34,116 nt of DNA from Myxococcales bacterium (GTDB taxonomy: Bacteria; Myxococcota; Myxococcia; Myxococcales; JAKAPL01). The notes under the pieces were generated by a model. That model saw nothing but the letters and a program-made list of their open reading frames with translations. It made no database searches and was not told where the DNA came from. Location: positions 1 to 34,116 of the forward strand of contig JAJXUD010000052.1 in NCBI GenBank assembly GCA_021783235.1, in the 5' to 3' direction. A program made the translations under genes and the position numbers. Of the stretch, positions 13,656-28,999 are shown one piece after another (within the stretch, counting starts at the first letter, position 1; each line of letters opens with the position of its first letter).

Positions 13656-15053
13656 GTGAAAGAGAAATCGCAGCGCGCCCCGCGCCCGAACAGCGGCCTC
13701 TCGTCGAAGCTGCGCCCCGACCGCGTCCACTCCGCCACGCTGGAGGTCCTCGCGATCGTGCGCGAGGAGGGGCGCCTCGCCGACCGGGCGCTCTCGCACG
13801 TGCTGCGGCGGGAGCAGAGCCTCTGGAGCGCGGAGCGCCGCGCCGTCGCCGAGCGCGTCTATGGTCTGCTGCGCAACGAGCGGCTGGTCGAGCGGGTCGC
13901 CGGAGCCACGCTCGGCTCCGGGCGCCTCGCGACGTTCTCCTCCAGCGAGGCCGACGCCGTGCGGCTCGCGGTCTGGGCGAGCCTCGTGGGCGCGCCGCCC
14001 CCGCCCGGCCTCGCGCCATCCCTCCGGCGTGCCGTCGAGGCCGCCGGGGCGGTCCGGGACGAGCTCCTCGCGGCGCTCGAACCGCTCGAGCGGCTGTCGC
14101 TGTCGTTCTCGCTGCCAGACTGGCTCGTCCGCCGCCTCGCCCTTCGGCTCGGAGAGCCCGAGTGCGCGAAGCTCTGCGACGCGCTCAACCGCCGCGCCCC
14201 GCTCACGCTGCGCGCAAACCTCCTGCGCGGCAGCCGAGAGGAGCTGCTCAGCGCGCTCGCGGCCGAGGGGGCGATGGCGACGGCCACGCGCCACTCGCCC
14301 TGGGGCACGGCCCTCGACGCCCGCACGAACGCCTTCGGCCTCCAGTCGTTCCGCCGGGGCCTCTTCGAGGTCCAGGACGAGGGGAGTCAGCTCCTGGCGC
14401 TGCTCTGCGGCGATCCGCCCGGCCGGCTCGTGGTCGACGCCTGCGCCGGCGCCGGCGGGAAGACGCTCGCGCTCGCGGCGTCGATGCGAAACCGCGGCGA
14501 GCTCTGGGCGCTGGATGCCCGCGCCGACCGGCTCGAGCTCCTCCGGCCGCGCGCCCGCCGCGCCGGAGCTCAGAACGTCCGCCTGCTGGCGATCCCCGAC
14601 GAGGGGCCCCTCCCCCCCGCGCTCGATCGGATCGCGGGCCGCGCGGACGTGGTCCTCGTCGACGCCCCGTGCAGCGGCATCGGGGCGCTCCGGCGCAACC
14701 CGGACGCCCGGCGGCGCCTGACCGAGGAGTCGGTCAGCGAGCACGCCCGGCGCCAGCTCTCGATCCTCATCCGCGCCGCGCGCCTCGTGCGGCCCGGGGG
14801 CCGGCTCGTCTACGCGACCTGCAGCCTCCTCTGGGAAGAGAACGAGGAGGTCGTGGAGCGCTTCCTCGCCCGCGGCGGCTTCGTCTCCGTCCCCTGGCAG
14901 GAGCTGCTCCCTTCGCCGCTCGCCCAGTCGCTCGCCGGCGACCTCGAGGGCGGACCGGAGGCGCTCCGCTCTCCGCTCGGGCTGCGCCTCTGGCCGCAGC
15001 GGCACGGCACGGACGGCTTCTTCGGCGCCGCCCTGCGCCGCGCTCCTCAGTGA
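13656..15053 (+). CDS. rsmB: 16S rRNA m5C967 methyltransferase RsmB
   Basis: A 465-residue RNA methyltransferase that should transfer a methyl group from SAM to C5 of cytosine 967 (E. coli numbering) of 16S rRNA. The N-terminal part is a NusB-like RNA-binding domain (SATLEVLAIVREEGRLADRALSHVL onwards). The SAM-binding loop is DACAGAGGKT (261-270). The two Rcmt cysteines are Cys339 in DAPCSGIGALRRNPD and Cys389 in YATCSLLWEENEE. Their spacing of 50 residues equals that of Cys325 and Cys375 in E. coli RsmB. The C-terminal RLWPQRHGTDGFFGA is typical. The only reasonable start is the GTG at 13656, without a clear ribosome site. Its stop overlaps the convergent next gene by 7 bp. Confidence 0.9.
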   Translation: MKEKSQRAPRPNSGLSSKLRPDRVHSATLEVLAIVREEGRLADRALSHVLRREQSLWSAERRAVAERVYGLLRNERLVERVAGATLGSGRLATFSSSEADAVRLAVWASLVGAPPPPGLAPSLRRAVEAAGAVRDELLAALEPLERLSLSFSLPDWLVRRLALRLGEPECAKLCDALNRRAPLTLRANLLRGSREELLSALAAEGAMATATRHSPWGTALDARTNAFGLQSFRRGLFEVQDEGSQLLALLCGDPPGRLVVDACAGAGGKTLALAASMRNRGELWALDARADRLELLRPRARRAGAQNVRLLAIPDEGPLPPALDRIAGRADVVLVDAPCSGIGALRRNPDARRRLTEESVSEHARRQLSILIRAARLVRPGGRLVYATCSLLWEENEEVVERFLARGGFVSVPWQELLPSPLAQSLAGDLEGGPEALRSPLGLRLWPQRHGTDGFFGAALRRAPQ

Positions 15054-15784
15054 ACGTAGATGTAGGTGACCTCGGTGGCGTTGCCGATGGGGAGCACCGT
15101 CACCTGCAGCCCCTCGGCTCCGCGGGCGTAGCGGAGCCCCTCCCCGAGCTCAGCGGGGCCCTGCTTCGCCTGCGTCCAGCCCTGGGCCGCCAGCCCACTT
15201 TGGATGAAGTCGAGGACCTCGGCCGGGTTGCCCTTGGCCGAGAAGCTGATGGTGCTGCTGCTCCTCGGCCCGTCCTGAGCGTCGGTGCGGAAGACGCCGT
15301 CGGTCTTCGGGAAGACGGGCAGCCCCGCCGGCATCTTCTGGTCGCCGGCGAGCGCGTTCTCGGTGAGCCCCTTCCCCGGAGCGATGCTCAGCACGACCCG
15401 GGTCGGCCCGCCGGCCCCCGGCATCACGAGAACGGTCTTCTGCAGGCCGCTCACGGGATCGAAGGCGGTCACGCCGGTCAACGGGATCTGCTTGGGCGGC
15501 GGCGGGACGAAGAGCTGCTCCCGCTTGAACTCGGCGCGGTAGAACGCGACCACCTTCTCCGGCGGGTCGTCCGTCTGGAAGCCGGCCATCTGCAGCTTCG
15601 CGTCGCCCAAGGTCACCTGATCGGCGATCTGGTAGGGGAGCGCGCCCGGGTACTCGTCGAAGTGGCCGAGGACCGCCCAGAGGCCGGCGGCGTCCTGCGG
15701 CGGCGACGCCACTCCGCCGTCGGTCCTGGCCGCCGCCGATCCCGAGCAGAGCGCGAGCAGCGCGCTAGCGGCCCAGGTAACGAT
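15047..15784 (-). CDS. Exported protein of unknown function with two similar modules
   Basis: About 237-245 residues; not assigned to a named family. The N-terminus (VTWAASALLALCSGSAAA) looks like an export signal, possibly a lipobox at LALC. Two modules follow. The first contains FQTDDPPEKVVAFYRAEF and a strand pair with VVLSIAPG. The second contains LPVFPKTDGVFR, ISFSAKGNPAEVLDFIQSG, QGW and TEVTYIYVH. Both share the layout of a strand, a pro-x-EVV/EVL helix and then paired strands, so an internal duplication is likely. There is no ATG, GTG or TTG near the N-terminus. The given end uses an ATC at 15782-15784; a CTG at 15760 is the other option. The gene overlaps the end of the preceding TadE-like gene and is the last of that operon, so translation is probably coupled. 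Confidence 0.65.
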   Translation of the reverse strand: MVTWAASALLALCSGSAAARTDGGVASPPQDAAGLWAVLGHFDEYPGALPYQIADQVTLGDAKLQMAGFQTDDPPEKVVAFYRAEFKREQLFVPPPPKQIPLTGVTAFDPVSGLQKTVLVMPGAGGPTRVVLSIAPGKGLTENALAGDQKMPAGLPVFPKTDGVFRTDAQDGPRSSSTISFSAKGNPAEVLDFIQSGLAAQGWTQAKQGPAELGEGLRYARGAEGLQVTVLPIGNATEVTYIYVH

Positions 15785-16769
15785 CGACGCGCTGGGAGAG
15801 CGCCGTCTGGTAGGCGTCCTGGGGGACGCCCTCGAAGGTGCCGTGATCCGACGGCCAGGTATTGAAGACCTGAGAGCCCGCCTCGGTGTTGACGGTGGGG
15901 CTTCCATTGCCGGCCCCGGAGGGGCTTGCACCATCGGCCGGCGTACCGGCCTGGTAGGCGAGCTCGGACGACCCGAACTCGGTGTCGAGCTCGGGCCCGT
16001 CGACGAGAACGTCGTAAGGAATCCAAGGGAGAGAGGGCGTGGTGTCATGGATCGCCTTCGATAGGGCGGAGAAGTGCTTGTTCTGGTCCTGGTCGGGCCA
16101 GCTCTTCGACGGGTCGCTCGAGCCGTCCTGCCCGAGGCCCCAGTCGTCCGTGAAGATCGTGAACGACGAGCTGATCCCGCAGCTCTTGGACGCGGGCGTC
16201 CCGATGCCGCAGACGGAGATGGAGCCTAGCAGATCGCTCGGCCAGATGCTGTCCCCTTGCAGGATCTCACCCTGCTCGGTCTTCTGGTCGAGATAGAAGT
16301 TCTCGATCCGGGCCTGCGTCTGGCACTGGATCAGGCCGCCCTCGTGGAGCTTCGTCCCTTCGGCCGCGGCCTGCCCCACGTCGAGCGACCCGGCCGAAGC
16401 CTGCTCGCACCGGATCGAACTCAGCTGGGCGCGCGCGCCCGCCCCGGTGAGCCAGCCGCTCGCCCCGCCGCCCATCCGCTCGTCCCAGGCGTCGAGCGCT
16501 CCGTAGACCTTCTTGATGTTCTTCTCGACGTCGGCCTTCGCCTTGTTGAACATCAGCGGGTGGTTGTAGTTGTCGTAGTTGTGAAGCAGGTGGCCCGTGA
16601 AATCCCACGCTGCCGCCGCCACCGCCTCCTGGGCCTTGAGCCGCGCGTAGAGCGCGTCCTGCAAGAAGATCGAATAGAGGAGCACGGGCACGAGGACCAA
16701 GAGGGAGATCATGAATTCGACCAGCGCCGTACCCCGGGCCCTTCCAGCATCGTCGACGCGCCTCGTCAT
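15765..16769 (-). CDS. TadE-like pilus-assembly-type protein, second module copy
   Basis: A 334-residue envelope protein. The N-terminal segment RGTALVEFMISLLVLVPVLLYSIFL is the TadE-type signature: a short basic head, a Glu in the helix and a single long membrane anchor. It is followed by a helical region (LKAQEAVAAAAWDFTGHLLHNY) and a large Cys-containing periplasmic or extracellular domain. It is clearly paralogous to the product of 18533-19780. Shared points include LLYSIFL, LKAQE, AAAAWD, LDAW, GAGA, TDDWGL..DG and a C-terminus ending YLG. It starts 2 bp after the TadG-like gene, exactly as its paralogue does. The usual TadE length is about 150-200 residues, so the distal domain is an addition of unknown role. 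Confidence 0.78.
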   Translation of the reverse strand: MTRRVDDAGRARGTALVEFMISLLVLVPVLLYSIFLQDALYARLKAQEAVAAAAWDFTGHLLHNYDNYNHPLMFNKAKADVEKNIKKVYGALDAWDERMGGGASGWLTGAGARAQLSSIRCEQASAGSLDVGQAAAEGTKLHEGGLIQCQTQARIENFYLDQKTEQGEILQGDSIWPSDLLGSISVCGIGTPASKSCGISSSFTIFTDDWGLGQDGSSDPSKSWPDQDQNKHFSALSKAIHDTTPSLPWIPYDVLVDGPELDTEFGSSELAYQAGTPADGASPSGAGNGSPTVNTEAGSQVFNTWPSDHGTFEGVPQDAYQTALSQRVDRYLGR

Positions 16770-16771
16770 GG

Positions 16772-18484
16772 CTACTCCGTCGCCGGCAAGACCGCGGCGA
16801 TCTTGGCGGGTTCCGTGAACTTGGCGGCGGTGAGCAGCGCCGCGAGATCGCCGCGGGCGAACGGATGCAGCTTGGCCCGCCAGAACGGATTGTAGAAGTT
16901 GGGCGGCTCTTTCCAGTCGCCGGGGCGGTGGTAGTAGGCGAGCCCCTGCGAGGCCGCGAGCATCTGCTTCCAGGGCACCGCGTCGGTGATGACGTTGTCG
17001 TAGGTGAAGTTCGACCGGTCGATCTGGCTCCAGACCTTCTGGTTCATCGCGTACGGCCCCTCCTCCGCGGCGGTGTAGCCGCGACCGAGCAGCGAGAACG
17101 TCCGGGGCTGGTTGTAGAGCTGCTCGCTCGGACTGATCTTGAACTCCGCCGTCGGGATCAGGACGCCGTAGTGCTCCGGGTTGCCGTCGCAAGGGCTGCA
17201 GCTCCCGAGCCGCAGATCGATCTGGCTCGTGTAGGAGGTGCTCCCGTCCGCCCAGCGGACCTCGCTCTGGCCCTGGCCCCCCGACGGCTGGAGCTTCGGC
17301 TCCGAGTAGGCCCAGACCTGCACGCTCGCGTCGCAGAAGCCTGGCGGGATCGGCGTCGACCAGCCGATCGGCTTGAGGTCGGTCGACAGCAGGTTGCCGT
17401 GGTCCTCGCCCGCGAACGAGAAGCCGCCCGGATCAGGCGCGTGAACGGCCGAGTGGACGTTCCCGCTCGCCGACTGAATCATCAGCGAGCTGCCCTGCCC
17501 CATCAGGGCGTTCTGCCACTCCGGGTCGGAGATCCACTCGTGGAGCAGGAGCTGGATGGGCGAGGTCGCGTAGTTCCGCTGCCGCAAGAAGTCGCTCATC
17601 ATCCCTGGACCGTTGCGACTGGCGTTCGAGGCCTCGATCTGGGTGTGAAGAACGGAGCCCGTGCCGCAGGGCACGGTATCGGTCGCCGTGCAGTAGCCCG
17701 CCGTGCTGCCGATCCCGATCGTGTTGGCGGCGTCGACCCCGACCCCGCCGACCGGGACGATCTTGCCCTTCGCGTCGAAGCCCTTGCCGAGCTGCGCCGC
17801 CAGCGCCTGGCCCTTGAGGATCTGGGCCATCTTCACGCTCACCTTCTCCTGCTGGGCGTTGACCGCCCAGATCTCCGCCATGTCCGCGAGGGCGGAGTCG
17901 TGGAGCGCGCCGGACAAAAAGCCACCGCTCCCGCTCTTGCCGAGCCCTTGCTGGACGTTCTGGATCCGCTGATTCAGGTTCTGGCAGATCCCGCTCTGGA
18001 TGCTCTGCTGCTCCTCCTCCGCCGAGACGTTGCACTCGATGAGCTGCCCGCAGTCGGTCCCCTCGGAGGCGACGCAGATCGGGCCGTAGATGGCCCAACA
18101 CCAGGCGTAGAGCTGATCGGGGATGTCGATCGGGCAGCTGCCGGAGTAGCCGCAGCCCCAGCTGTTCGCGAGCGACTCGAGGTAGCCCTCGTAGGCGACC
18201 AGGTAGCTCATGTGGCCGTACGTCGCGAGGATCGCGACGTAGTGCGACACCATCGACCGATTCGTGTAGGCGAAGAAGTTGAACGCGCGCGCCTCTTGAA
18301 CGGCGAGCGAGTAGCTGGATGCGTCGGCCGCCTGCTGGAGCTCGATCTTCGACTGGATGGCCTGGCCAATCGCGAAGGTGGTGAGGAGCGTGAAGGCGAC
18401 GATCGCGCCCATGACCGCGAGCAGCACGAGCGTCTGACCGCTCTCGCCGGTCCTGCGGCTCGCTGGCGTCGTCCACTCGGCCAT
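16772..18484 (-). CDS. TadG-like envelope protein, second module copy
   Basis: A 570-residue protein of the TadG/Flp-pilus-assembly type. An N-terminal Tad segment, SGQTLVLLAVMGAIVAFTLL, forms a single membrane anchor and is followed by QQAADASSYSLAVQEARAFNFFAYTNR, the usual cytology of these proteins. A large Cys-rich extracytoplasmic region follows. Near the C-terminus is the striking motif YYHRPGxWKEPPNFYNPFW, shared with the product of 19783-21726, as are the EDH..L.S.D and ADGS..SQID.RLG blocks. The ATG at 18484 is preceded by AAGGGGAGACG; a GTG at 18520 is the alternative. It is followed after 2 bp by its TadE-like partner. No von Willebrand MIDAS motif of classical TadG was seen, so function is open. 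Confidence 0.78.
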   Translation of the reverse strand: MAEWTTPASRRTGESGQTLVLLAVMGAIVAFTLLTTFAIGQAIQSKIELQQAADASSYSLAVQEARAFNFFAYTNRSMVSHYVAILATYGHMSYLVAYEGYLESLANSWGCGYSGSCPIDIPDQLYAWCWAIYGPICVASEGTDCGQLIECNVSAEEEQQSIQSGICQNLNQRIQNVQQGLGKSGSGGFLSGALHDSALADMAEIWAVNAQQEKVSVKMAQILKGQALAAQLGKGFDAKGKIVPVGGVGVDAANTIGIGSTAGYCTATDTVPCGTGSVLHTQIEASNASRNGPGMMSDFLRQRNYATSPIQLLLHEWISDPEWQNALMGQGSSLMIQSASGNVHSAVHAPDPGGFSFAGEDHGNLLSTDLKPIGWSTPIPPGFCDASVQVWAYSEPKLQPSGGQGQSEVRWADGSTSYTSQIDLRLGSCSPCDGNPEHYGVLIPTAEFKISPSEQLYNQPRTFSLLGRGYTAAEEGPYAMNQKVWSQIDRSNFTYDNVITDAVPWKQMLAASQGLAYYHRPGDWKEPPNFYNPFWRAKLHPFARGDLAALLTAAKFTEPAKIAAVLPATE

Positions 18485-18532
18485 CGTCTCTCCCCTTGCC
18501 ACGTCTCCCGGGGCACTCACGCGCCCCGCCGC

Positions 18533-19780
18533 TCACATCCCCAGGTAGTTCTCGGTCCGAGCCCTCCACGCCTTGTAGTACGCGTTGCCCGTCAAGGGCG
18601 CGATCGACGAGTTCGCCTTCAGGTAGAACGGCCAGGTGTCCGAGTACTGCGGCGACTGCTCGCCGTGCTCGATCTGCTGGAGGTTGTTCGGCGTATCCTT
18701 GAGCATGGCGGGGTCGCCCGACGCTCCGCCCCCGCCGCCGGGCTTGTCGGTCACCGGCGACCGCTCGTTCAGGAGGAAGGCGCCGTAAGCGACGTCGATC
18801 AGGGCGAGCTCACCGATCTCGGCGTAGCTGCCCCCGGTCGCATAGCCGGCCTCTGCCAGTTGCACGGCCCTATTGTACGTCAAGCCGCTGACGGCAGGAA
18901 CGCCGAGCGCACCGAGGCCGCCGGTGGGCACCGAGTTCTCGTAGACCTCCTTGCCCACCCGGTAGAAGTCCATCGAGTTCGACGAGCTGTCGTAGAAGTC
19001 CGTGTCCGTGTTCTGGCTCCCATCCGCCCAGTGGGTGTGGCTGTCCGAGCCGTTCGACGTCCCGTCGGCGGCGAGGCCCCAGTCGTCCGTCATGATCCCG
19101 AACGAGGCCGTCCCCGTTCCGCAGCTCCCCCCCGACGCCGTCCCGACGCCGCAGAGCGAGATCTTTCCGATGGCCGTCGCGTCATACAGCGCCACCTGCC
19201 CGAGCCAGGTCGGACCATCCATGAAGTGCTGCGACGGCTTCCCCGTGCCGAGGAACCAGTTCTGCGACTCGACCTCGGCCTGGCAGCGGACGAAGCCGCC
19301 GGTGTGCAGCTTCACGCCCGCGAACGCGGCGCTCGAGGGATCGATCGAGGGGAGCGGGCTGATGTCGCCGGACCCACCGCCGACCGAGGCGTCGAGCTTG
19401 CAGCTCACCGAGCCATTCTTGAGCGATCCCTTCGCGCCCGCGCCGACCAGATCCGACGACGAGGCCCCCCCGCCCCCCTCGTTGGCCCAGGCGTCGAGCC
19501 CCTTGTAGCGCTTCTCGACGGCGCTCTGCGTGGCCGACGCCGCCGCCGTGTACTTCGAGGCGTGATCGAAGCTCGACGAGTAGTCGTGCAGCGTCCGGCC
19601 GGTGAGATCCCACGCGGCCGCGGCGGTGATCTCCTGCGCCTTGAGCTGGAAGAAGAGCGTGTCGGCGAGGAAGATCGAGTAGAGCAGCGCCGGGATGAAG
19701 ACCAGCATCGAGACGGCGAACTCCACCGTGGCGGCGCCGCGCCGACGATCGAAACGACCCACTCGCGCCGTCGGGCTCAT
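18533..19780 (-). CDS. TadE-like pilus-assembly-type protein, first module copy
   Basis: A 415-residue protein with a TadE-type start (RRRGAATVEFAVSMLVFIPALLYSIFL) and then LKAQEITAAAAWDLTGRTLHDY, matching the later copy at 15765-16769. The long distal domain contains Gly/Ser-rich low-complexity stretches (EGGGGASSSD, PGGGGGASGD) and Cys pairs (SLCGVG..GGSCGTG), then TDDWGLAADG and the end RARTENYLGM. It is 81 residues longer than its paralogue, mainly in the C-terminal half. The ATG at 19780 is 2 bp after the stop of the TadG-like gene, and the next TadG-like gene follows after about 50 bp. It is predicted to be anchored in the inner membrane with the bulk outside. Confidence 0.78.
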   Translation of the reverse strand: MSPTARVGRFDRRRGAATVEFAVSMLVFIPALLYSIFLADTLFFQLKAQEITAAAAWDLTGRTLHDYSSSFDHASKYTAAASATQSAVEKRYKGLDAWANEGGGGASSSDLVGAGAKGSLKNGSVSCKLDASVGGGSGDISPLPSIDPSSAAFAGVKLHTGGFVRCQAEVESQNWFLGTGKPSQHFMDGPTWLGQVALYDATAIGKISLCGVGTASGGSCGTGTASFGIMTDDWGLAADGTSNGSDSHTHWADGSQNTDTDFYDSSSNSMDFYRVGKEVYENSVPTGGLGALGVPAVSGLTYNRAVQLAEAGYATGGSYAEIGELALIDVAYGAFLLNERSPVTDKPGGGGGASGDPAMLKDTPNNLQQIEHGEQSPQYSDTWPFYLKANSSIAPLTGNAYYKAWRARTENYLGM

Positions 19781-19782
19781 GC

Positions 19783-21726
19783 TCACTCCGTCACCCTGGG
19801 AACCGAGAGGGCGTCCACCGCGGCGATGTCGCCGAGCGGCATCCCACCCGCTTTTAGCACCGCATCGAGCGTGATCCGCGCATCCACCTGGGAGCTGCCA
19901 GGCGACTGCACGGGGTGGAGCTTCGCGCGCCAGAACGGGTTGTAGAAGTTCGGCGGCTCCTTCCACGTGCCGGGGCGGTGGTAGTAGGCGAGGCCGCGCG
20001 AGAGCGCCCACATCTTCTGCCCCGGGCCGAACTTCGTGAAGACGTTGTCGTAGGTGTGGCTGCTCGTGTCGACGATCCCCATCGAGCTCTTGTCGAGCTC
20101 CATTCCGTAGGGGCCCTCGTCCGCGGCCGCGAGCGAGGTCGTGAGCAGGGCCCAGGTGCTCGGCTGGTTCTCCAGCGGGTCGGTCGTCTGGACGGCGAAG
20201 TTCGCGGTGGGGATGCCGAGCCCCGCGATGGTCGGCGAGAGCTTCCCTCCCAGCCGGATGTCGATCTGGGAGCTCCCGCTGTCGGTCCCGTCGGCCCAGT
20301 GGACGTCGCTGTCCCCTTTGCCGGGCGGCATCGAGTAGACGAAGGTGTTCGACTCGTGGCCCATCGCCCCAAAGACCGGGAGGCACTCCTCGTCGGCCGA
20401 GATCAACCCGTTGTGATCCTCGGCGCCGGCCGCGGTGCTTCCACCCGAGGCCTGGCCGCCCGACGGCGGCGAGGGCGGGGCACCTCCGCCAGGCGCGGGG
20501 TTGTAGAGCGCGGGGCAGTTCCAACCGCTGCTGTCGTTGCAGAGCGCGTTCTGCTGCGGGCCGACGACGAGCCGAGACATCCCCGTCCCTTCGAGGCTGC
20601 CGAAGCTCAAGTGCGCGAGGTCGACGATGCCGTTCTGGCGCGGGAAGGGCGCGCCAAAGTAGTGCATCTGGAGGTAGACGTTCTCCTCGGTCTTCTTGCG
20701 GTCGCGCAGGAAATCCCCCGTCAACGCCCCCAGGTTCGCCGCGGCCGGCCCCCAGCGCTCGGAGTTCGCCGCGAACTGCAGCGTGTCGATCGAGACCGAG
20801 TTGTGCCCGCCGAGCGGCTCGCAGATGGGGGCCCCGATCCCGCCGACCATCGCGGCGTCACAGAAGCCGGCCGGCGTCTTCCCCGCGATCGACTTGACGT
20901 TGAGCGCCCCCACCAGGAGCGGGGCCTTGATGTGCGGGTCGAAGGTCTGGCCGATCTTCTCGGAGATCGCCTTCGTGTCCCCCATCGAGGCGATGAGCTT
21001 CGCGGCGATCCCCTCCTGCTGGAGTCCGGCGATCGTGTCGCGGGCGAGGTCGTCGCGATGGAGCTTCGCGAGATCGTGCAGCCGCCCGAGCGTCCCGCCG
21101 CCGCCGCCGCTCTTGCCGAGATCCTGGTCGGCCTGCTGGAGGTCGTTGCAGATCTTCGGGCAGTAGTTCTCGAGGATGTTGATGTTCTCTTGGATGACGC
21201 ACTCCGCCTGGTCGCAGAAGGGGAGACCGATCGGCGCCCCCGCGACGGTCGCCGCGAGCGCGCAGCCCGCGGCGACTTCGGCGTCCATCATCTCCGGGAT
21301 GTTGAGCGCCCCGAGGACGTCCTTGAGGAAGCTGGGCAATTTGTCGAGGATGCCCGGCAGCGCGATCGGCAGCGCCAGCGGGTTCACGTTGCAGGACGGG
21401 TCGAAGTCGCAGCCCCAGTTGGAGGCGAGCGCGTAGAGGTTCCCCTCGTAGTTCACGAGGTAGCTCATGTAGCCGTAGAGCGCCATGACGACGACGTAGT
21501 GCGAGACGATCGCCCGGTTGGTGTAGGCGAAGTAGTTGAAGGTCCGGGCCTCCTGGACCGCGAGCGAGTAGCTCGCGGCGTCGGCCGCCTGCTGGAGCTG
21601 AATCTTCTCGCGGACGGCCCGGCCGATGGCGAACGTCGTCAGGAGCGTGAAGGCGACGATCGCCGCCATCACGGCGAAGAGCACGATGGCCTGGCCGCTC
21701 TGGCCGCGCTTCGGCGCCGGCGTCAC
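19783..21726 (-). CDS. TadG-like envelope protein, first module copy
   Basis: A 647-residue paralogue of the 16772-18484 product. The N-terminus SGQAIVLFAVMAAIVAFTLL is the membrane anchor. It is followed by LQQAADAASYSLAVQEAR, FNYFAYTNRAIVSHYVVVMALYGYMSYLV and a large extracytoplasmic region with a Pro/Gly/Ser-rich linker (PGGGAPPSPPSGGQASGG). Near the C-terminus it carries the shared blocks EDHNGLISAD, ADGT..SQIDIRLGG and YYHRPGxWKEPPNFYNPFW. The GTG at 21726 overlaps the stop of the TadE-like gene as GTGA, so the genes are translationally coupled. DNA around the C-terminal motif is nearly the same in both copies (compare 19915-19995 with 16865-16945). Role in pilus assembly or adhesion is inferred from family only. 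Confidence 0.78.
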   Translation of the reverse strand: MTPAPKRGQSGQAIVLFAVMAAIVAFTLLTTFAIGRAVREKIQLQQAADAASYSLAVQEARTFNYFAYTNRAIVSHYVVVMALYGYMSYLVNYEGNLYALASNWGCDFDPSCNVNPLALPIALPGILDKLPSFLKDVLGALNIPEMMDAEVAAGCALAATVAGAPIGLPFCDQAECVIQENINILENYCPKICNDLQQADQDLGKSGGGGGTLGRLHDLAKLHRDDLARDTIAGLQQEGIAAKLIASMGDTKAISEKIGQTFDPHIKAPLLVGALNVKSIAGKTPAGFCDAAMVGGIGAPICEPLGGHNSVSIDTLQFAANSERWGPAAANLGALTGDFLRDRKKTEENVYLQMHYFGAPFPRQNGIVDLAHLSFGSLEGTGMSRLVVGPQQNALCNDSSGWNCPALYNPAPGGGAPPSPPSGGQASGGSTAAGAEDHNGLISADEECLPVFGAMGHESNTFVYSMPPGKGDSDVHWADGTDSGSSQIDIRLGGKLSPTIAGLGIPTANFAVQTTDPLENQPSTWALLTTSLAAADEGPYGMELDKSSMGIVDTSSHTYDNVFTKFGPGQKMWALSRGLAYYHRPGTWKEPPNFYNPFWRAKLHPVQSPGSSQVDARITLDAVLKAGGMPLGDIAAVDALSVPRVTE

Positions 21727-22433
21727 TGACAGGTCCCCTTGTAGCCCGGCGAGGCGCCCGCCGGCAGGTTCGACATCATCCGCATCGAGTAGGAGGTCCG
21801 CAGCGGGACGAAGTAGCGGCTGCCGAGGTGGTACTTGGCCGCGTCGGCCATGTGGGTCGCCTTGCGGCCGGCGAACAGGGCGTCGACGTTGCTCCGCTTG
21901 GAGGCCGGCACGAGCTCGTCGGCCTTGTTGCTGAAGTAGTTCGAGCCCGTCCACATCTCGTGGATCATCATGTTCGCGAACGGGATCCGGAGCTCGTAGT
22001 TGTAGGTGAGCTCCGCGGTCAACGTGAGCGGGTGGTCGGGGTCGTCGAAGTCCTGCGCCGTGTAGGGGGAGGCCGGGGCGCCGTCGTCCGCCGTGACGAC
22101 GTACTTGAGCCGGATGAGCGGCAGCGGCAGCGGCAGGTAGATGTTCCCAACCGGCGAACCGTAGCTGTTTCCGAGCCAGGTCTTGCCGAGTTCCAGCGCC
22201 GTGTCCGTCCGGCCGAAGCTCGGCAGGATGGCCTGGTCGGCCGCCGGGATCATCACGTTGCAGGCGACCTGGTTCACGCTGCCGGCCCGGACGGCGCGGT
22301 AGGCGGCGTACTCCGCGAGCAGGCGCGCCTGCTGCATCATGCTGAGCTGCATGATCCCGAGGATCATGAAGATGCTGAACGGCATGACCAGGGCCGTCTC
22401 CACTCCGACCTGGCCGGCTTCTCTCGAGCGCAT
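21723..22433 (-). CDS. TadE-like pilus-assembly-type protein heading the Tad gene run
   Basis: A 236-residue protein with a TadE-type N-terminus, REAGQVGVETALVMPFSIFMILGIMQLSMMQQAR, giving a single membrane anchor with the conserved Glu. AEYAAYRAVRAGSVN follows, a stretch usual in TadE proteins. The remainder is an extracytoplasmic domain of about 170 residues ending GASPGYKGTCQ. It is not closely similar to the other two TadE-like proteins, which share a different distal domain. The ATG at 22433 has GGAG with a 7-nt spacer. An in-frame ATG at 22451 sits 6 nt after TATGCT and could be a leaderless start instead. It is the first gene of the operon that continues through the TadG-like/TadE-like pairs to 15047. 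Confidence 0.8.
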   Translation of the reverse strand: MRSREAGQVGVETALVMPFSIFMILGIMQLSMMQQARLLAEYAAYRAVRAGSVNQVACNVMIPAADQAILPSFGRTDTALELGKTWLGNSYGSPVGNIYLPLPLPLIRLKYVVTADDGAPASPYTAQDFDDPDHPLTLTAELTYNYELRIPFANMMIHEMWTGSNYFSNKADELVPASKRSNVDALFAGRKATHMADAAKYHLGSRYFVPLRTSYSMRMMSNLPAGASPGYKGTCQ

Positions 22434-22521: not shown

Positions 22522-23199
22522 TCATTGAATCGGCTTCGCTTTCCCGCTCGAGAGCCCAAAGCCGAGGTTCACCGAACCGAGCTGCGTGCTCTCGTCGCAG
22601 CGGCCCACCGAGCCCCCGAGGTCGATCCGCTCCTCCCGCTCCGTCCCCGGGAAGAGGATGGCGAGCGCCTGGACCGAGAGCTGGAGGCCCGGCGGAAGCC
22701 GGCCGCACTCGATCGAGACGCGGTATTCGCCGGGCGTGGCGCGGCGGAGCAGGAACACGTGCGGCCCGGGCGCCTCCGGGTCGTCCCGAAGCCGCAGCGC
22801 CCCCGAGCGCGCGCTGCGGTTGCTCGAGTCGATCGCCTCCCCGCTCGGGTCGACGACGCGCAGGTCGAGCCGAGCGCCGGCGGCCGGCCAGCCCGCGACC
22901 ACGACGAGATCGGGCCCCTGGGCGCGCCCGACGAGATCGACCCAGGCCCGCTCGCCGCCCCGGGCGACGCCGATCGGGTTCGCGCCGGGAAAGAGCGGCA
23001 GCCAGACGGCCACGCGGCCGTGCCGATCGACCGCGAGCGGCCAGCTCCGGTCGGCCCAGAGGAGCGCGGCCGGCCCATGGCCGACGTCGGCCACGAGCTC
23101 CGTGGTCTCGAGCCCCGTCGTGCCCGTGGCGGGGCGCTCGATCGATGGCGGCGACGGCGGCGGGGCGGCGAGGAGCGCGAGCGCGAGCAGAGCCCTCAT
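22522..23199 (-). CDS. YfaP/DUF2135-like exported protein beside the macroglobulin gene
   Basis: A 225-residue protein with a short signal peptide (MRALLALALLAAPPPSPPS). The central part, ARLDLRVVDPSGEAIDSSNRS followed by LRLRDDPEAPGPHVFLLRRATPGEYRVSIECG, has the layout of DUF2135/YfaP domains: a strand with D-L-x-V-x-D-P-x-G, an acidic pair, and a P-x-G-x-Y strand. The similarity is by eye and moderate. Support comes from the context: its ATG overlaps the stop of an alpha-2-macroglobulin-like gene as ATGA, and in E. coli yfaP is clustered with the macroglobulin gene yfaS. It is probably periplasmic or surface-exposed and may assist the macroglobulin; no activity is known. Confidence 0.62.
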   Translation of the reverse strand: MRALLALALLAAPPPSPPSIERPATGTTGLETTELVADVGHGPAALLWADRSWPLAVDRHGRVAVWLPLFPGANPIGVARGGERAWVDLVGRAQGPDLVVVAGWPAAGARLDLRVVDPSGEAIDSSNRSARSGALRLRDDPEAPGPHVFLLRRATPGEYRVSIECGRLPPGLQLSVQALAILFPGTEREERIDLGGSVGRCDESTQLGSVNLGFGLSSGKAKPIQ

Positions 23200-26100
23200 G
23201 GCGAGACCTCCAGGCGGCCGGCCGGCAGCGACGCGGCCGCGAAGCCGAGCGAGGCCCCGGGCAGCGCGAACTCTCCCGCGTGGACTGCCCGCGCGCCGTA
23301 GGAGACCACGAGCCTGCCGCTCGATCCGTCCCCGCAGAGGGCGAACGCGCCGGCCGCCTCCTCCGGCAGCCCCATCGGCAAGAGGCCGGCGGCCGGCCGC
23401 TCCACGAGGCAGGCGCGCGGCGTCGCCTCGGCGAGCTCGGCCGAGAGCTCCACCTGCAGCTCGTCGCCGACCCGGAGCCGGAGGCCCGGCCCCTTCGTCG
23501 CCTCCGGCGGCTCGTCGTCGGCGGCGATGGCGGCCTCCGTCCAGGGCGGACGGGTGAGCCGCGACAGCGAGCGTCGGACCGAGGTCGCGGGGGGCGCCCA
23601 GTCCGGCGGCAGCTCCCCCGAAAGCGGCGCGAGCGCGACGACGGCCTCGGCGGCGTCCAACGGGTCACCGCCCCGGAGCCAGCGGCTCGAGCGCTCGACG
23701 ATCGCCGTCCGCTCGAGCCGGCCGGGCCTCCGGGAGGGCTCCTTGACGAACTCGGAGCAGCCCCGTGGAAGCCCCGCGACCGGGCCGCCCTCGCCTGGCC
23801 GGAGGTCCTCGATCCGCTGCCGCGTCCGGTCGACGAGGCCGCGGTCGAGCGTCGCTCCGGAGCCCGCGAGCGCCCCGAGGCCGGCGAGCGCCTCGCAGTC
23901 TCGGCGCCGCTCGTCCACCGCCGACCCGAAGCCGCCCGCGAGGTTCTCGAGCTGCGCCAGCCTGGCCAGCGCGGCCTCCACCGACCGCGCGCTCCGCTCC
24001 GCGGGTCCGAGGGCCCCGAGCGCGCGCACGGCCGCGCAGGCGAGGTCGGCGTCGCCGCGGGCGTCGTGCGCCGAGGCCAACCGCTCGGCCAGCTCGCGGG
24101 CCGCGGCGCGCGGGCTCCTCCCCAGGCCCGCCGCCCAGTCCTCCGCCGGCAGGATCGGGAGGCGGGCCGTCCGATGGGCGCCCCGCAGCTCGAGGAGGCC
24201 CGGCGGCCCGGCCTCGACGAGGGAGATCGCCGTCGCCCCCTCGCAGCGGAACGAGACGAGCCGCCCCCCGGCGACCGCGGGAGGGGCCGGGCAGAGAGCC
24301 TGCGGGGGCCCGATGGCGGCGGCGGCGGCGGCGACGAGCCGATCGCCCGGCCGCATCCAGGCGGGCAGCTCCGGCGGCGGCTCGGCCGGGGGAGAGACGC
24401 GGAGGTCGATGCGGCGCTCCGCGAAGAGGCCCGGCCCCTCGACGGCCCAGAGGCTCGCGTGCAGGGTTCCGCCCTGCTGGGGACGGATCGTGGCGACCGC
24501 CGCCCCGGAGTCGTCCGCCGTGAGCGAGATCGCATGGCCGTCGGGGGCCGCCCCCTCCGCCTCCGGCCGGAGCGCCACCGGACCGTAGGGCTGCAGCGGC
24601 GGCCGCGAGGCCTCCCCGGAGGCGACGCGCTGGAACGGCTCCCGGGAGAAGGCGACCCCGGGCGGCGCGCGGAGCGGGGCGAGCAGCTCCTCGAGCCGCG
24701 GCGCCCAGGGGCGCTCGTTCGACAGGAAGAGGCCGAGCCAGGCGGGGACACCCCTCCCGGCGGCGTCTCGGACCTCGATGGAGAGCGGGTTGCCGGCGCC
24801 GGCCTTGAGCCGATCCGGCCCGATCCGGAGGCTGAGCGGCTCGCCGCGCTCCGCCGCCGCGATCGACGCGAGCGCGCGGTAGGATCGGCCGGCGACGAGC
24901 GCGCTCGCCGAGAGCAGGGCGGGGAGCTCGCCGAGCCGGACGCGGCCGATGCCGGAGTAGCCGTGGATCGGCACGACGTGGTCGGGCGGCCCCCCGGGGG
25001 CGACGCCCACGAGCGCGACCCCGGATTCGAAGGGGCAGAGCAGGAGGAAGCGGAGCTCGTCCCCCGGGGCCGCCGCGATCTTGTCGGGGACGAGGAGCAG
25101 CCGATCGGGGGTCGTCGGGACGTCGCCGCCGGCCTCGGTCACGAAGATCGACGCCTGCGCGCGGAAGCCCGCTTCGCCCCTCCCCGAACGGGCGGGCCGA
25201 GCCTCGAGCTCGACGTAGCCCGGCGCCGCCGGCGGGAGGAGCAGCGTGGCCCTCCCCTTCGCGTCGGTCTGGGCGCGGAGGCTCGCCGATTCGGACTTCT
25301 GCGCCTCGCCGCTCGGGCCGGCGCGAACGAACCGGACGAGCAGCTCGACCTCGCCGCGCCAGGGCTCGCCGCCGGCGGAGGCGGCCTCGACGCCCACGGC
25401 GATGGCCTTGCCCGGCCGGGCGATCCGATGCTCGGGGGAGATCCGGAGGCGCGGGGCGACGCCCCAGGCCTCGGCCTCGGCCACGGCCCTCGCCTCCCGC
25501 CCGGCCGGATCCTCGAGGCGGGCCTCGATCCGGACGCGGCCGGGCCCCGGGGGCGACGGGAGCGACGCCGTCAGCTCGCCGCCCGCGCCGCTCACGCCGC
25601 TGCCGCTCGCGAGGCTCTCCCAGGGGCCGTCCTCCGCGGGCCCCACTCCGTCCCCCGCCGTCCCGAGCGATCTCCAGAGCGCGTCCCAGCGGACCGCGGC
25701 GCCCGGGAGGGGGAGCCCCGGCCTCTGCCGCACCCGGAGCCGCGCGACGACGGGCCGGCCCGGCTCCATCCGCGGCAGCTCCCAGCGGCCCGAGAGCTCG
25801 GGCGGCGCGCCGCTCGCCAGCTCGAAGTCGACCCCGCGCCGGCTCCGCCCCCAGTCGAGGACCGCCGAGTAGAGGCCGGGCGGGAGCCCCTCGGGGAGCG
25901 GCAGCGAGGCGTCCACCGTGCCGAGCGCCGAGATGTCGACGGGGAGCGACTCGAGCAACGTCCCGCGGCGCCCCCTCAGCTCGAGCGTCGCCTCCTGGGC
26001 GTCGGCGATCCGCCAGGGGAGCGGCGCCCCGGGGCCGGTCCGCACCCGCAGCAGGGCCCGGGCGTGGAGCGTCTCGCCGGCGAGGTAGCGCGAGCGGTCG

Positions 26101-28358
26101 AGCGTCAGCGCCGCCGCGACCCGAGGGGCGCTCGGCGGGACGAGGTCGCGCTCCTCGCGGGCGGGCGGCAGCGGCGCCCAGGCGAGGTCGGCGCCGAGCC
26201 GCGCGACGGCGATCCCCTCCATCGGGGCCCGGGCGACGAGGAGGCCGTTCGGCTGCGTGCGGCCCGCGAGCGAGAGCTCGCGCCCCTCCCCCTCGGAGAC
26301 GAAGATCTCGGCCCCCTCGCGCGGGGCCCCGCTGTGCGCGTCGGTCGCGAGGAGAGAGACGCCCCCGCCCGCGCGCGCCACGAGCAGGGCGAGCCGGCTC
26401 GAGAGGACGATCGCCTCGCCCCGGGCGCCGCCCGCGAGCGCGACCGCCCGGTAGGCCCCCGCCTCGAGCGGCCCCAGCGCCACGTCGGCGTACGTCCAGC
26501 CGGGCTCGGGCGCCTCGACGCGCCAGGCGCGCACGAGCGGCTCGTCGCCCCTCACCTCGCTCGGCTGCTCGGCGTCCCGGGGCAGGCTGGCGCCGAGCGG
26601 CCGCGACGCGCCCGAGAGCGCCCGGGCGAGGGCGCGGCCGGGGGAGGTCAACGCCCGCCAGATCGCGCGGTAGCTGCTCGAGAGGGCGCGCCCCCCGAGC
26701 CGGGCGGCCGACTCGAGCGGCGGCGGAGCGACCGCCGCGCCGGAATCGAGCCGGCCCGCGAGCGCCGCGAGCGGATTGGGGAGCCGGTAGAGCGTCAGCT
26801 CGACCTCGCGCGCGCCTCGGACGGCGAGGTGGGCGACCGGCTGGCCCTCCGCGCCCGGGAGGACGGGGGCGTCCACCGAGAGCTGGACGGCGGCCTCGGC
26901 GCCCGCGCCGGCCTCCGCCGCCGCCGTCCCGCCGGAGGGGACGCTCGCCGGCTTCGGCGCGGCGCGAGCGGCCTCTGTTGGGGCTGGCGCGCTCGCGAGC
27001 GTCCAGCTCCCGCGCGCCCCCCCGCCCTGCCCGCGAAGCTCGGCCTCGAGCCGCAGGCCCGCCCCGTCGGCCAGCGCCCGCAGCAGGACGGGGCCCCCCA
27101 CCTCTCCCTTCTCCTCGGCCCGCTCGAGGAGCGGCCGCGCCGCGTGCTCGGCCACGGCCACGGCGCTCCAGCCCGCGCGGCTGCAGACGCAGACCGACGC
27201 GTCGACCCCGCCCGGACAGAGGATCCTGCCGCCCCGCAAGGCCGCCTCAAACGGCTCCTCGGCCTCGACGAACGCGAGGCGGGCGGCCCGCTCGAGCGGC
27301 TCGGCGGCCTCCGAGCTCGTCCGCCAGGCGAGCACGCCGCCGAGGCCGCCCGCGCCGTCCGCCCCCAGCCAGAGCCCCGCGCCGCGGCCGAGCCGCTGCG
27401 CGAGCGCGTCGAGCGCGCCCAGCAGCGCCGCCCCTTCGGGCTCGGGCGCCGGCCGGATCGAGCGCCAGGCAGCCGCGCCGTCGAGCCCCGGCCCCTCGAG
27501 CCGCACGATCCCGCCGGGCGGCAGGAGCGTCGGCGCGGCCGACTCTCCCCAGGCCCCGAGGTCGAGCTCCGCCGAGAGCGTCCCGTCGATCGCGCCGATC
27601 GACCGGAGGCCGAGCGGCGCGGAGGCCGCCTCGGGGCCAGCCTCGCCCGGCTGAAAGGCGGCGGCGAAGAGATGCCCCCTCGCGCTCTCCTCGAGCCCCG
27701 CGAACGGCACGGGGGCCCCAGGCGCCGCCGGCCGCTCCCCGATCGACGCCTCGAGCGCGCGGGCGAGCAGCGCGCCGCGGCTCGCGAGGACGAGCCGGTC
27801 GGCCAGGACGAAGTAGGAGACCGCCCCTTCGGGCGAGAGCCTCACCCGATGGAGCGGCACCCCCCGTCGCCGCTCGACCTCGACGTCGCGCCCCGAGGGG
27901 TGGACCGCGTGCAGCGCCCGGGCGAGGTCGAGGAGCGCCGCGCGCGCGGGGGAGAGCCGAGAGATCCAGAGCCAGCCGCCCGGCCCCTCGGGCCCGGGCG
28001 CGACGCGGACGAGGACCGCGGGGCCGTCGAGCAGCGCGGCGAGGTCGAGCGGGCTGCCGCGCGAGAGCTCCGAGAGCCGGTCGCGGGCGGTCCGGAGCCG
28101 CTCGAGCCACGGCAGCGCCTCGAAATCGCGATCGAGCCGCTCGCGCCGGAGGGCAGCGCCGAGGGGCGAGCGCTCCAGCGCCTCGAGGGCGCCGCGGGGG
28201 CTCGGAAAGACCGCGGCGAAGGTCGCGGGGCCCGGCAGGCGCGCCAGCAGGGGGCCGGGGCCGACGGCGGGGAGCGATTCGAAGGAGCCGCTCAGGCGAC
28301 CGCCGCCCGGCCGCCGGCAGGCGGCCAGCGCGACGGCGAGCGCGAGGAGGGCCTTCGT
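23196..28358 (-). CDS. Alpha-2-macroglobulin-like lipoprotein without thioester (YfaS-like)
   Basis: A giant exported protein of about 1720 residues. A lipoprotein signal, KALLALAVALAAC, is followed by about 450 residues that resemble DUF3352-type domains (LARLPGPATFAAVF, YFVLADRLVLASRGALLARALEA). Macroglobulin domains come next; LTLDRSRYLAGETLHARALLR near residue 745 is the hallmark MG2 strand. Further MG-like repeats and a helical thioester-domain-like region (about 1400-1530) follow, then a C-terminal domain with VGDELQVELSAELAEATPRACLVERPAAGLLP. No CxEQ thioester is present; the only Cys of that region is in GCSEF. This matches the thioester-less YfaS branch of bacterial macroglobulins, thought to guard the periplasm from proteases. 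There is no ATG, GTG or TTG at the signal peptide: the given start is an ACG (28356-28358); a CTG 75-80 bp upstream is another option. Confidence 0.8.
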   Translation of the reverse strand, partial: TKALLALAVALAACRRPGGGRLSGSFESLPAVGPGPLLARLPGPATFAAVFPSPRGALEALERSPLGAALRRERLDRDFEALPWLERLRTARDRLSELSRGSPLDLAALLDGPAVLVRVAPGPEGPGGWLWISRLSPARAALLDLARALHAVHPSGRDVEVERRRGVPLHRVRLSPEGAVSYFVLADRLVLASRGALLARALEASIGERPAAPGAPVPFAGLEESARGHLFAAAFQPGEAGPEAASAPLGLRSIGAIDGTLSAELDLGAWGESAAPTLLPPGGIVRLEGPGLDGAAAWRSIRPAPEPEGAALLGALDALAQRLGRGAGLWLGADGAGGLGGVLAWRTSSEAAEPLERAARLAFVEAEEPFEAALRGGRILCPGGVDASVCVCSRAGWSAVAVAEHAARPLLERAEEKGEVGGPVLLRALADGAGLRLEAELRGQGGGARGSWTLASAPAPTEAARAAPKPASVPSGGTAAAEAGAGAEAAVQLSVDAPVLPGAEGQPVAHLAVRGAREVELTLYRLPNPLAALAGRLDSGAAVAPPPLESAARLGGRALSSSYRAIWRALTSPGRALARALSGASRPLGASLPRDAEQPSEVRGDEPLVRAWRVEAPEPGWTYADVALGPLEAGAYRAVALAGGARGEAIVLSSRLALLVARAGGGVSLLATDAHSGAPREGAEIFVSEGEGRELSLAGRTQPNGLLVARAPMEGIAVARLGADLAWAPLPPAREERDLVPPSAPRVAAALTLDRSRYLAGETLHARALLRVRTGPGAPLPWRIADAQEATLELRGRRGTLLESLPVDISALGTVDASLPLPEGLPPGLYSAVLDWGRSRRGVDFELASGAPPELSGRWELPRMEPGRPVVARLRVRQRPGLPLPGAAVRWDALWRSLGTAGDGVGPAEDGPWESLASGSGVSGAGGELTASLPSPPGPGRVRIEARLEDPAGREARAVAEAEAWGVAPRLRISPEHRIARPGKAIAVGVEAASAGGEPWRGEVELLVRFVRAGPSGEAQKSESASLRAQTDAKGRATLLLPPAAPGYVELEARPARSGRGEAGFRAQASIFVTEAGGDVPTTPDRLLLVPDKIAAAPGDELRFLLLCPFESGVALVGVAPGGPPDHVVPIHGYSGIGRVRLGELPALLSASALVAGRSYRALASIAAAERGEPLSLRIGPDRLKAGAGNPLSIEVRDAAGRGVPAWLGLFLSNERPWAPRLEELLAPLRAPPGVAFSREPFQRVASGEASRPPLQPYGPVALRPEAEGAAPDGHAISLTADDSGAAVATIRPQQGGTLHASLWAVEGPGLFAERRIDLRVSPPAEPPPELPAWMRPGDRLVAAAAAAIGPPQALCPAPPAVAGGRLVSFRCEGATAISLVEAGPPGLLELRGAHRTARLPILPAEDWAAGLGRSPRAAARELAERLASAHDARGDADLACAAVRALGALGPAERSARSVEAALARLAQLENLAGGFGSAVDERRRDCEALAGLGALAGSGATLDRGLVDRTRQRIEDLRPGEGGPVAGLPRGCSEFVKEPSRRPGRLERTAIVERSSRWLRGGDPLDAAEAVVALAPLSGELPPDWAPPATSVRRSLSRLTRPPWTEAAIAADDEPPEATKGPGLRLRVGDELQVELSAELAEATPRACLVERPAAGLLPMGLPEEAAGAFALCGDGSSGRLVVSYGARAVHAGEFALPGASLGFAAASLPAGRLEVSP

Positions 28359-28462
28359 CGCTGGCCGTGCCGCGGGATGTCGAAGTCCTTCCGTTTGTCG
28401 GCCTCCAGGCTCCAGCGGTGAGCGAGCATCGCCGATCGGCTGGTCGGGACCAAGCGGTTCGA

Positions 28463-28987
28463 GGCGAGCGGGGTCGAGACGAGAGCGAGCAGGGTCGAGT
28501 CGAAGGCGAGCAGCGTCGAGACGAGGGCGAGCAGCGTCGAGTCGAGGCCGAACAGCGTCGCGTCGAAGGCGAGCGCGGTCGAGTCGAGGCCGAACAGCGC
28601 CGAGTCGAAGGCGAGCGCGGTCGAGTCGAAGGCGAACAGCGTCGAGTCGAGGGCGAGCACGGTCGAGTCGAAGGCGAACAGCGTCGAGTCGAGGGCGAGC
28701 GCGGTCGAGTCGAAGGCGAACAGCGTCGAGTCGAGGGCGAGCGCGGTCGAGTCGAGGCCGAACAGCGTCGAGTCGAAGGCGAGCGCGGTCGAGTCGAGGC
28801 CGAGCGGGGTCGAGTCGAGGGCGAGCAGGGTCGAGTCGAAGCCGAACAGCGTCGAGTCGAGGCCGAGCAGCGTCGAGTCGAAGGCGAGCGCGGTCGAGTC
28901 GAGGCCGAGCAGCGTCGAGTCGAAGGCGATCACGGTCGAGTCGAAGGCGAGCAGGGTCGAGTCGAAGGCGAACGCGGTCGAGTCGAA
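28463..28987. repeat. Minisatellite: 25 tandem units of 21 bp
   Basis: Exactly 525 bp made of 25 units of 21 bp, built on the plus-strand core GTCGAGTCGA followed by a variable purine-rich half. Units with A or G at fixed positions alternate in the middle of the array, giving a 42-bp higher-order period. Because the unit is a multiple of three, several frames on both strands stay open: minus-strand heptads of the type (F/L)DSTxLx and LRLDxAR, and plus-strand heptads RVExExx and VESxAxx. None has a convincing start and stop of its own. The array fills most of the 713-bp gap between the phosphoesterase stop and the macroglobulin signal peptide. Twenty-one bp is two helical turns, so each unit faces the same side of the DNA. 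Confidence 0.95.
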
Positions 28988-28999
28988 GCCGAGCGCGCC

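Follow-up and report, generated by a model that had tools for sequence, protein, structure and literature searches.

Does a compact run of five prepilin-like genes in a myxobacterium encode a surface structure of its own or part of a known pilus, and why does its first gene occur once when the pair that follows occurs twice? In Myxococcus xanthus, the products of mxan_4660, 4659 and 4658 (KilM4, KilN4 and KilL4), together with three paralogous sets, were shown to be minor pilins (Herrou et al., 2025; PMC12075869). These KilLMN sets constitute interchangeable Tips of the Kil (Tad) pilus and are required for contact-dependent prey killing; in the published models M, N and L of a Tip form a heterotrimer around a single alpha-1 bundle (PMC12075869). 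Each of the four Tips has its own trio; how the Tad pilus chooses among them is an open question (PMC12075869). The locus examined here is located on a 34,116-bp contig (C9) from a 4.58 Mb draft genome (G000, 97.5% complete). This whole contig is referred to as the window. Other members of the same order, i.e. Myxococcus and related myxobacterial genomes and MAGs, were used for comparison.

The five genes were named M, N1, L1, N2 and L2 in the order of transcription (Table 1). Their order, coordinates and lengths had been proposed in an earlier sequence-only reading, and all of them hold. M and N1 overlap by 4 bp (GTGA) and 48 bp separate L1 from N2. The 2-bp gap within each pair, N1-L1 and N2-L2, was confirmed, as were the shared motifs quoted in that reading. 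GGAG is present just 5' of each L start codon. Between the five genes no sigma-70-type promoter or terminator consensus was detected, such scans being weak evidence in this genome type.

Table 1. Genes of the tip locus and its flanks, in order of transcription (positions in the window).
Gene	Predicted product	Position	Strand	Remarks
	alpha-2-macroglobulin-like protein, upstream of M	23196..27845	-	Pfam MG2 E 3e-8; 37% over 1315 aa to same-place gene of G001
	small protein upstream of M	22522..23199	-	56-59% identity to gene upstream of KilM in G001 and G002
M	KilM-like minor pilin (TadE domain)	21723..22433	-	236 aa; Pfam TadE E 3.5e-7
N1	KilN-like large minor pilin (TadG-like)	19783..21726	-	647 aa; Pfam Tad E 3.4e-5; KilN profile 566 bits
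L1	KilL-like minor pilin	18533..19780	-	415 aa; 34-38% identity to KilL homologues, syntenic loci of G001 and G002
N2	KilN-like large minor pilin	16772..18484	-	570 aa; KilN profile 595 bits
L2	KilL-like minor pilin	15765..16769	-	334 aa; 42% identity to L1 over 254 aa
D	conserved downstream protein	15047..15712	-	start codon uncertain, probably further upstream

As judged from sequence comparisons, all five proteins almost certainly are members of the KilM, KilN and KilL minor-pilin families, i.e. Kil-type tip pilins. M has 27-54% identity to KilM homologues. N2 and L2 have 42% and 35% identity to a KilN and a KilL which in a relative of the same family (G002) are encoded apart from any KilM. 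Pfam recognised the TadE and Tad N-terminal domains alone, partly below cut-off, and M, N, L and D matched no NCBIfam family. A sequence search against the PDB gave no match, nor did a fold search of the PDB with N1 and N2 at E 0.001. In a set of about 50 loci, drawn from Myxococcota and related MAGs and including two of M. xanthus AM003 (L074 and L092), the gene order was M-N-L with few exceptions. In a KilN tree the proteins of this myxobacterial family formed a clade of their own, outside the Tip3 and Tip4 groups.

The C-terminal YYHRPG...NPFW motif shared by N1 and N2 turned out to be a hallmark of the KilN family and no sign of a new system: the pattern YYHR..W.E.P...P.W was present in 50 of 54 KilN proteins, and the motif was dismissed as a special mark of this pair. 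Loci from the motif scan (L065 onward) carry the motif by selection; no such selection applied to the loci from the whole-protein search (L050-L064), and all of these except L063 have it.

Like the Kil Tips, the proteins have a prepilin leader and an N-terminal hydrophobic alpha-1 helix. Glu at +5 is present in M (EAG/QVGVE; the slash marks the cleavage site), L1 (RRG/AATVE) and L2 (ARG/TALVE), conforming to G/XXXXE. It is absent from N1 (QSG/QAIVL); the N proteins have G/QxxVL as is usual for KilN, and all 54 KilN proteins lack a Glu in this position. The AlphaFold2 model of N1 has one long N-terminal helix (residues 10-103), a helical insert and a beta scaffold, and in N2 the elements are predicted in the same order, helices, then strands (mean pLDDT 67 and 68, pTM 0.68 and 0.69 for N1 and N2, with much of the distal part at low confidence). 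The extra distal domain of the KilN type, helices plus beta scaffold, was thus seen in both models. Gene order, the predicted long N-terminal helix and the predicted helical and beta distal part are consistent with published features of KilN and the Tips. TadE/TadF/TadG of ordinary Tad (Flp) pili likewise have TadE and Tad N-terminal domains and comprise a large TadG-like protein. Unlike those, the proteins here possess the C-terminal motif and domains of KilN, and their sequences group with the Kil Tips.

How are the two N-L pairs related? When the pairs were aligned, as suggested in the sequence-only reading, protein similarity spanned the full length of both. N1 and N2 are 39% identical over 624 aa (E 1.9e-114); L1 and L2 matched with E 1.9e-44 to 1e-54. 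The likeness extends well beyond the membrane anchors and is far above chance, so that the observation withstood the alignment result which its author had named as a refutation. At the DNA level, identity between N1 and N2 amounts to 79% in a 302-bp stretch of the anchor and to 80% in a 145-bp stretch at the C-terminal motif; the matches between L1 and L2 were weaker. Protein identity of N1 and N2 falls from 69% over residues 1-110 to about 30% over residues 111-430, then rises to 41% over residues 431-560 and to 69% around the motif. The variable stretch is the part expected to face outward. Because anchor and motif are kept across the whole KilN family, sharing them is by itself no proof of a recent duplication.

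Duplication followed by divergence, as originally suggested, stands insofar as the compact operon contains diverged paralogous pairs. The trees do not reject N2-L2 as the orthologue of the KilM-less N-L pair of G002. That the second pair arose in place by recent tandem duplication within this lineage is a tentative reading at slightly less than even odds; it is compatible with a use of the pairs as alternate heads (see below). In the KilN tree N1 and N2 were sisters (80/97 support), their anchors are 69% identical to each other vs 54-63% to relatives, and the locus is syntenic with single-pair loci of relatives. However, the AU test rejected neither a tree joining N2 with the KilM-less KilN of G002 (p 0.33) nor the matching L tree (p 0.14), and around the C-terminal motif N2 shares 80% identity with that KilN vs 69% with N1. 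With an anchor nearest to N1 and a motif region nearest to G002, N2 may belong to an old second pair whose anchor was homogenised, which we consider a lead.

Next to the question of origin is that of the filament. It had been stated that a Tad ATPase, a secretin and a prepilin peptidase are missing from the window. This is correct, yet the genome encodes on other contigs the components of a Kil (Tad-like) machine: secretin, CpaB, ATPase, two platform proteins, prepilin peptidase and a Flp major pilin. C42 carries an FHA protein, a KilA-like A24 prepilin peptidase, the secretin, an FHA-ATPase and an FHA/TPR protein. CpaB and the two T2SSF platform proteins are located on C62, adjoining FHA proteins. 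The Flp pilin, an 81-residue KilP-like protein on C95, is 59% identical to one in a relative (G001) and was the one good match when the genome was queried for Flp. No adapter pilin of the KilK/KilO type was identified; proteins like KilK and KilO are very short and divergent. Because Kil machinery and a Flp pilin are encoded on other contigs, a system separate from the Flp pilus was rejected. Of the proposed surface structure distinct from the classical Flp pilus, the surface structure is supported and the distinctness is not.

The locus resembles the KilLMN Tips of M. xanthus in its three families, the M-N-L order, the KilN C-terminal motif, the downstream gene D and the Kil-type machine in the genome. 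Unlike in M. xanthus, the tip locus is unlinked to the core kil genes in this draft, and the export gate of the needleless type III secretion system (T3SS*), a system which Tip1-3 of M. xanthus require, was not found. The search gave no FHIPEP match at E 0.001 in this genome (~97% complete); the organism thus probably lacks the T3SS* that accompanies the Kil system in M. xanthus. Is the pilus then used against prey? By analogy with M. xanthus a predatory role in this organism is more likely than not. A filament for general adhesion or surface sensing, unrelated to predation, would fit the missing export gate and the one tip locus in this genome vs four Tips in M. xanthus; moreover, TadEFG of ordinary Tad pili also give tip-like models (PMC12075869). 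Such a filament appears rather unlikely, however, because the sequence families are those of the Kil Tips, which are reported to be restricted to Myxococcota (PMC12075869), and the FHA-ATPase, a KilF homologue with FHA neighbours, is 71% identical to its Myxococcus homologue.

The novel feature is the ratio of the genes. Profile searches of this genome found two KilN and M as the single KilM. In place of one dedicated KilM per Tip, one M thus accompanies two N-L pairs (M-N-L-N-L-D), unlike in the KilLMN Tips of M. xanthus. This is a variant feature and not a sequence trait which defines the family. A second M, very divergent or in an assembly gap, could exist. The numbers of KilN and KilM were equal in G074 (7/7), G008 (1/1), G004 (4/4, plus one weak KilM-like fragment) and G001 (1/1). 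G033, whose loci have 83-94% DNA identity to M. xanthus AM003 and which was for this reason treated as a close Myxococcus relative, has four KilM and five KilN, one of these an orphan; this fits the four published Tips. An orphan KilN close to KilN4, with neither KilM nor KilL beside it, was seen in Myxococcus (L054, 4995-7091) and in M. xanthus AM003 (L092, 2959-5034), so tip sharing may occur there too. G002 has two KilN and one KilM in an assembly that is only 69% complete. In both G001 and G002, of the same family, this locus recurs with a single N-L pair, flanked on either side by the same genes as here; the second N-L pair of G002 is located elsewhere, without M (L052). Among the loci sampled, M-N-L-N-L-D was seen in the window only. 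Two Tip sets side by side also occur in the tandem Tip3-like clusters of some Myxococcus (G074; L080-L082, e.g. M. eversor and M. qinghaiensis). In those clusters every set comes with an M of its own, and short Flp-like genes adjoin the sets, whereas here M is not repeated.

We propose, with a probability of roughly 0.62, that the products of the five genes make up the minor-pilin Tip of a Tad pilus of the Kil class, with one KilM-type base and two KilN-KilL pairs as alternative heads. The sequences themselves show the family membership, the copy numbers and the synteny; that the proteins form trimers, dock, alternate and serve predation we infer by analogy with M. xanthus. The prepilins would be processed by a KilA/PilD-type peptidase. 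M, N and L would assemble into a heterotrimer that docks through its alpha-1 helices onto the end of the Flp (KilP-like) filament. N would probably be outermost with its variable region (residues 110-430) facing the target cell. In type II secretion pseudopili GspK, a large minor pilin without Glu+5, caps the filament. The absence of Glu+5 from N and its presence in M and L would fit an outermost N by analogy with GspK; the likeness is one of analogy alone, as no sequence or fold match between GspK and KilN was found. With a single M found, M-N1-L1 and M-N2-L2 would most likely form alternately on the same base, resulting in two tip specificities for prey or surface contact. For the alternation of N-L heads on a shared M as such the balance is somewhat favourable.

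All five pilins could instead be part of one larger tip, consisting of M and both N-L pairs. The compact cluster with its short gaps suggests that all five are probably made together, and M is alone in the genome. Against this stand the M-N-L models of the known Kil Tips around one alpha-1 bundle (PMC12075869) and the relatives with one N-L pair at this locus. In addition, the shared anchor of N1 and N2 (69% identical) suggests that they compete for one site. We consider a five-pilin tip improbable. That N2-L2 is a decaying duplicate without function is very improbable: although N2 and L2 fall short of N1 and L1 in length, neither is disrupted, ribosome-binding-like sites and the conserved motifs are present, N2 has the same Cys count as N1 and the higher KilN profile score, and the separate N-L pair of G002 is intact as well.

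What does one base with two heads imply? The system is a known one; what is new is its stoichiometry of two KilN with one KilM, compared with M-N-L trios in nearly all other sampled loci. Tips may be modular in that one KilM base takes heads that can be exchanged and the N-L pair moves as a cassette, with a second pair in tandem here and a KilM-less pair elsewhere in G002; a Kil-type pilus could also work without a T3SS* export gate. For this generalisation the odds are even. If true, the bacterium could alter pilus recognition while keeping its base pilin. With a single base and two heads side by side in a cluster, the question of tip choice would be reduced to a single exchange, which is testable. 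The locus also extends the Kil Tips to a myxobacterial family that lies outside the main Myxococcus group, and to a genome in which no T3SS* export gate was found.

The gene downstream of L2 belongs to an unnamed family of small proteins, which is a conserved fourth gene of Tip clusters. D is 57% identical to the protein encoded next to KilL in G001 and 54% to its counterpart in G002, and phmmer connected it with the products of the genes that follow KilL in Myxococcus and elsewhere (E down to 2.7e-20). The family follows KilL in most Tip clusters (e.g. L053, 2990-3772), those of M. xanthus included, and is also found beside KilL4 in Myxococcus; here D keeps its place 3' of the second N-L pair. 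No Pfam or NCBIfam family matched the members tested. The proteins are probably exported.

On the other side of the cluster, the alpha-2-macroglobulin-like and small-protein genes lie directly upstream of KilM in 3 of 3 genomes of the family. Any tie of the alpha-2-macroglobulin-like gene to the Tip is putative. At 28459-28994 the window contains a 21/42-bp tandem repeat of about 25 units, largely within a predicted reading frame (LDST repeats).
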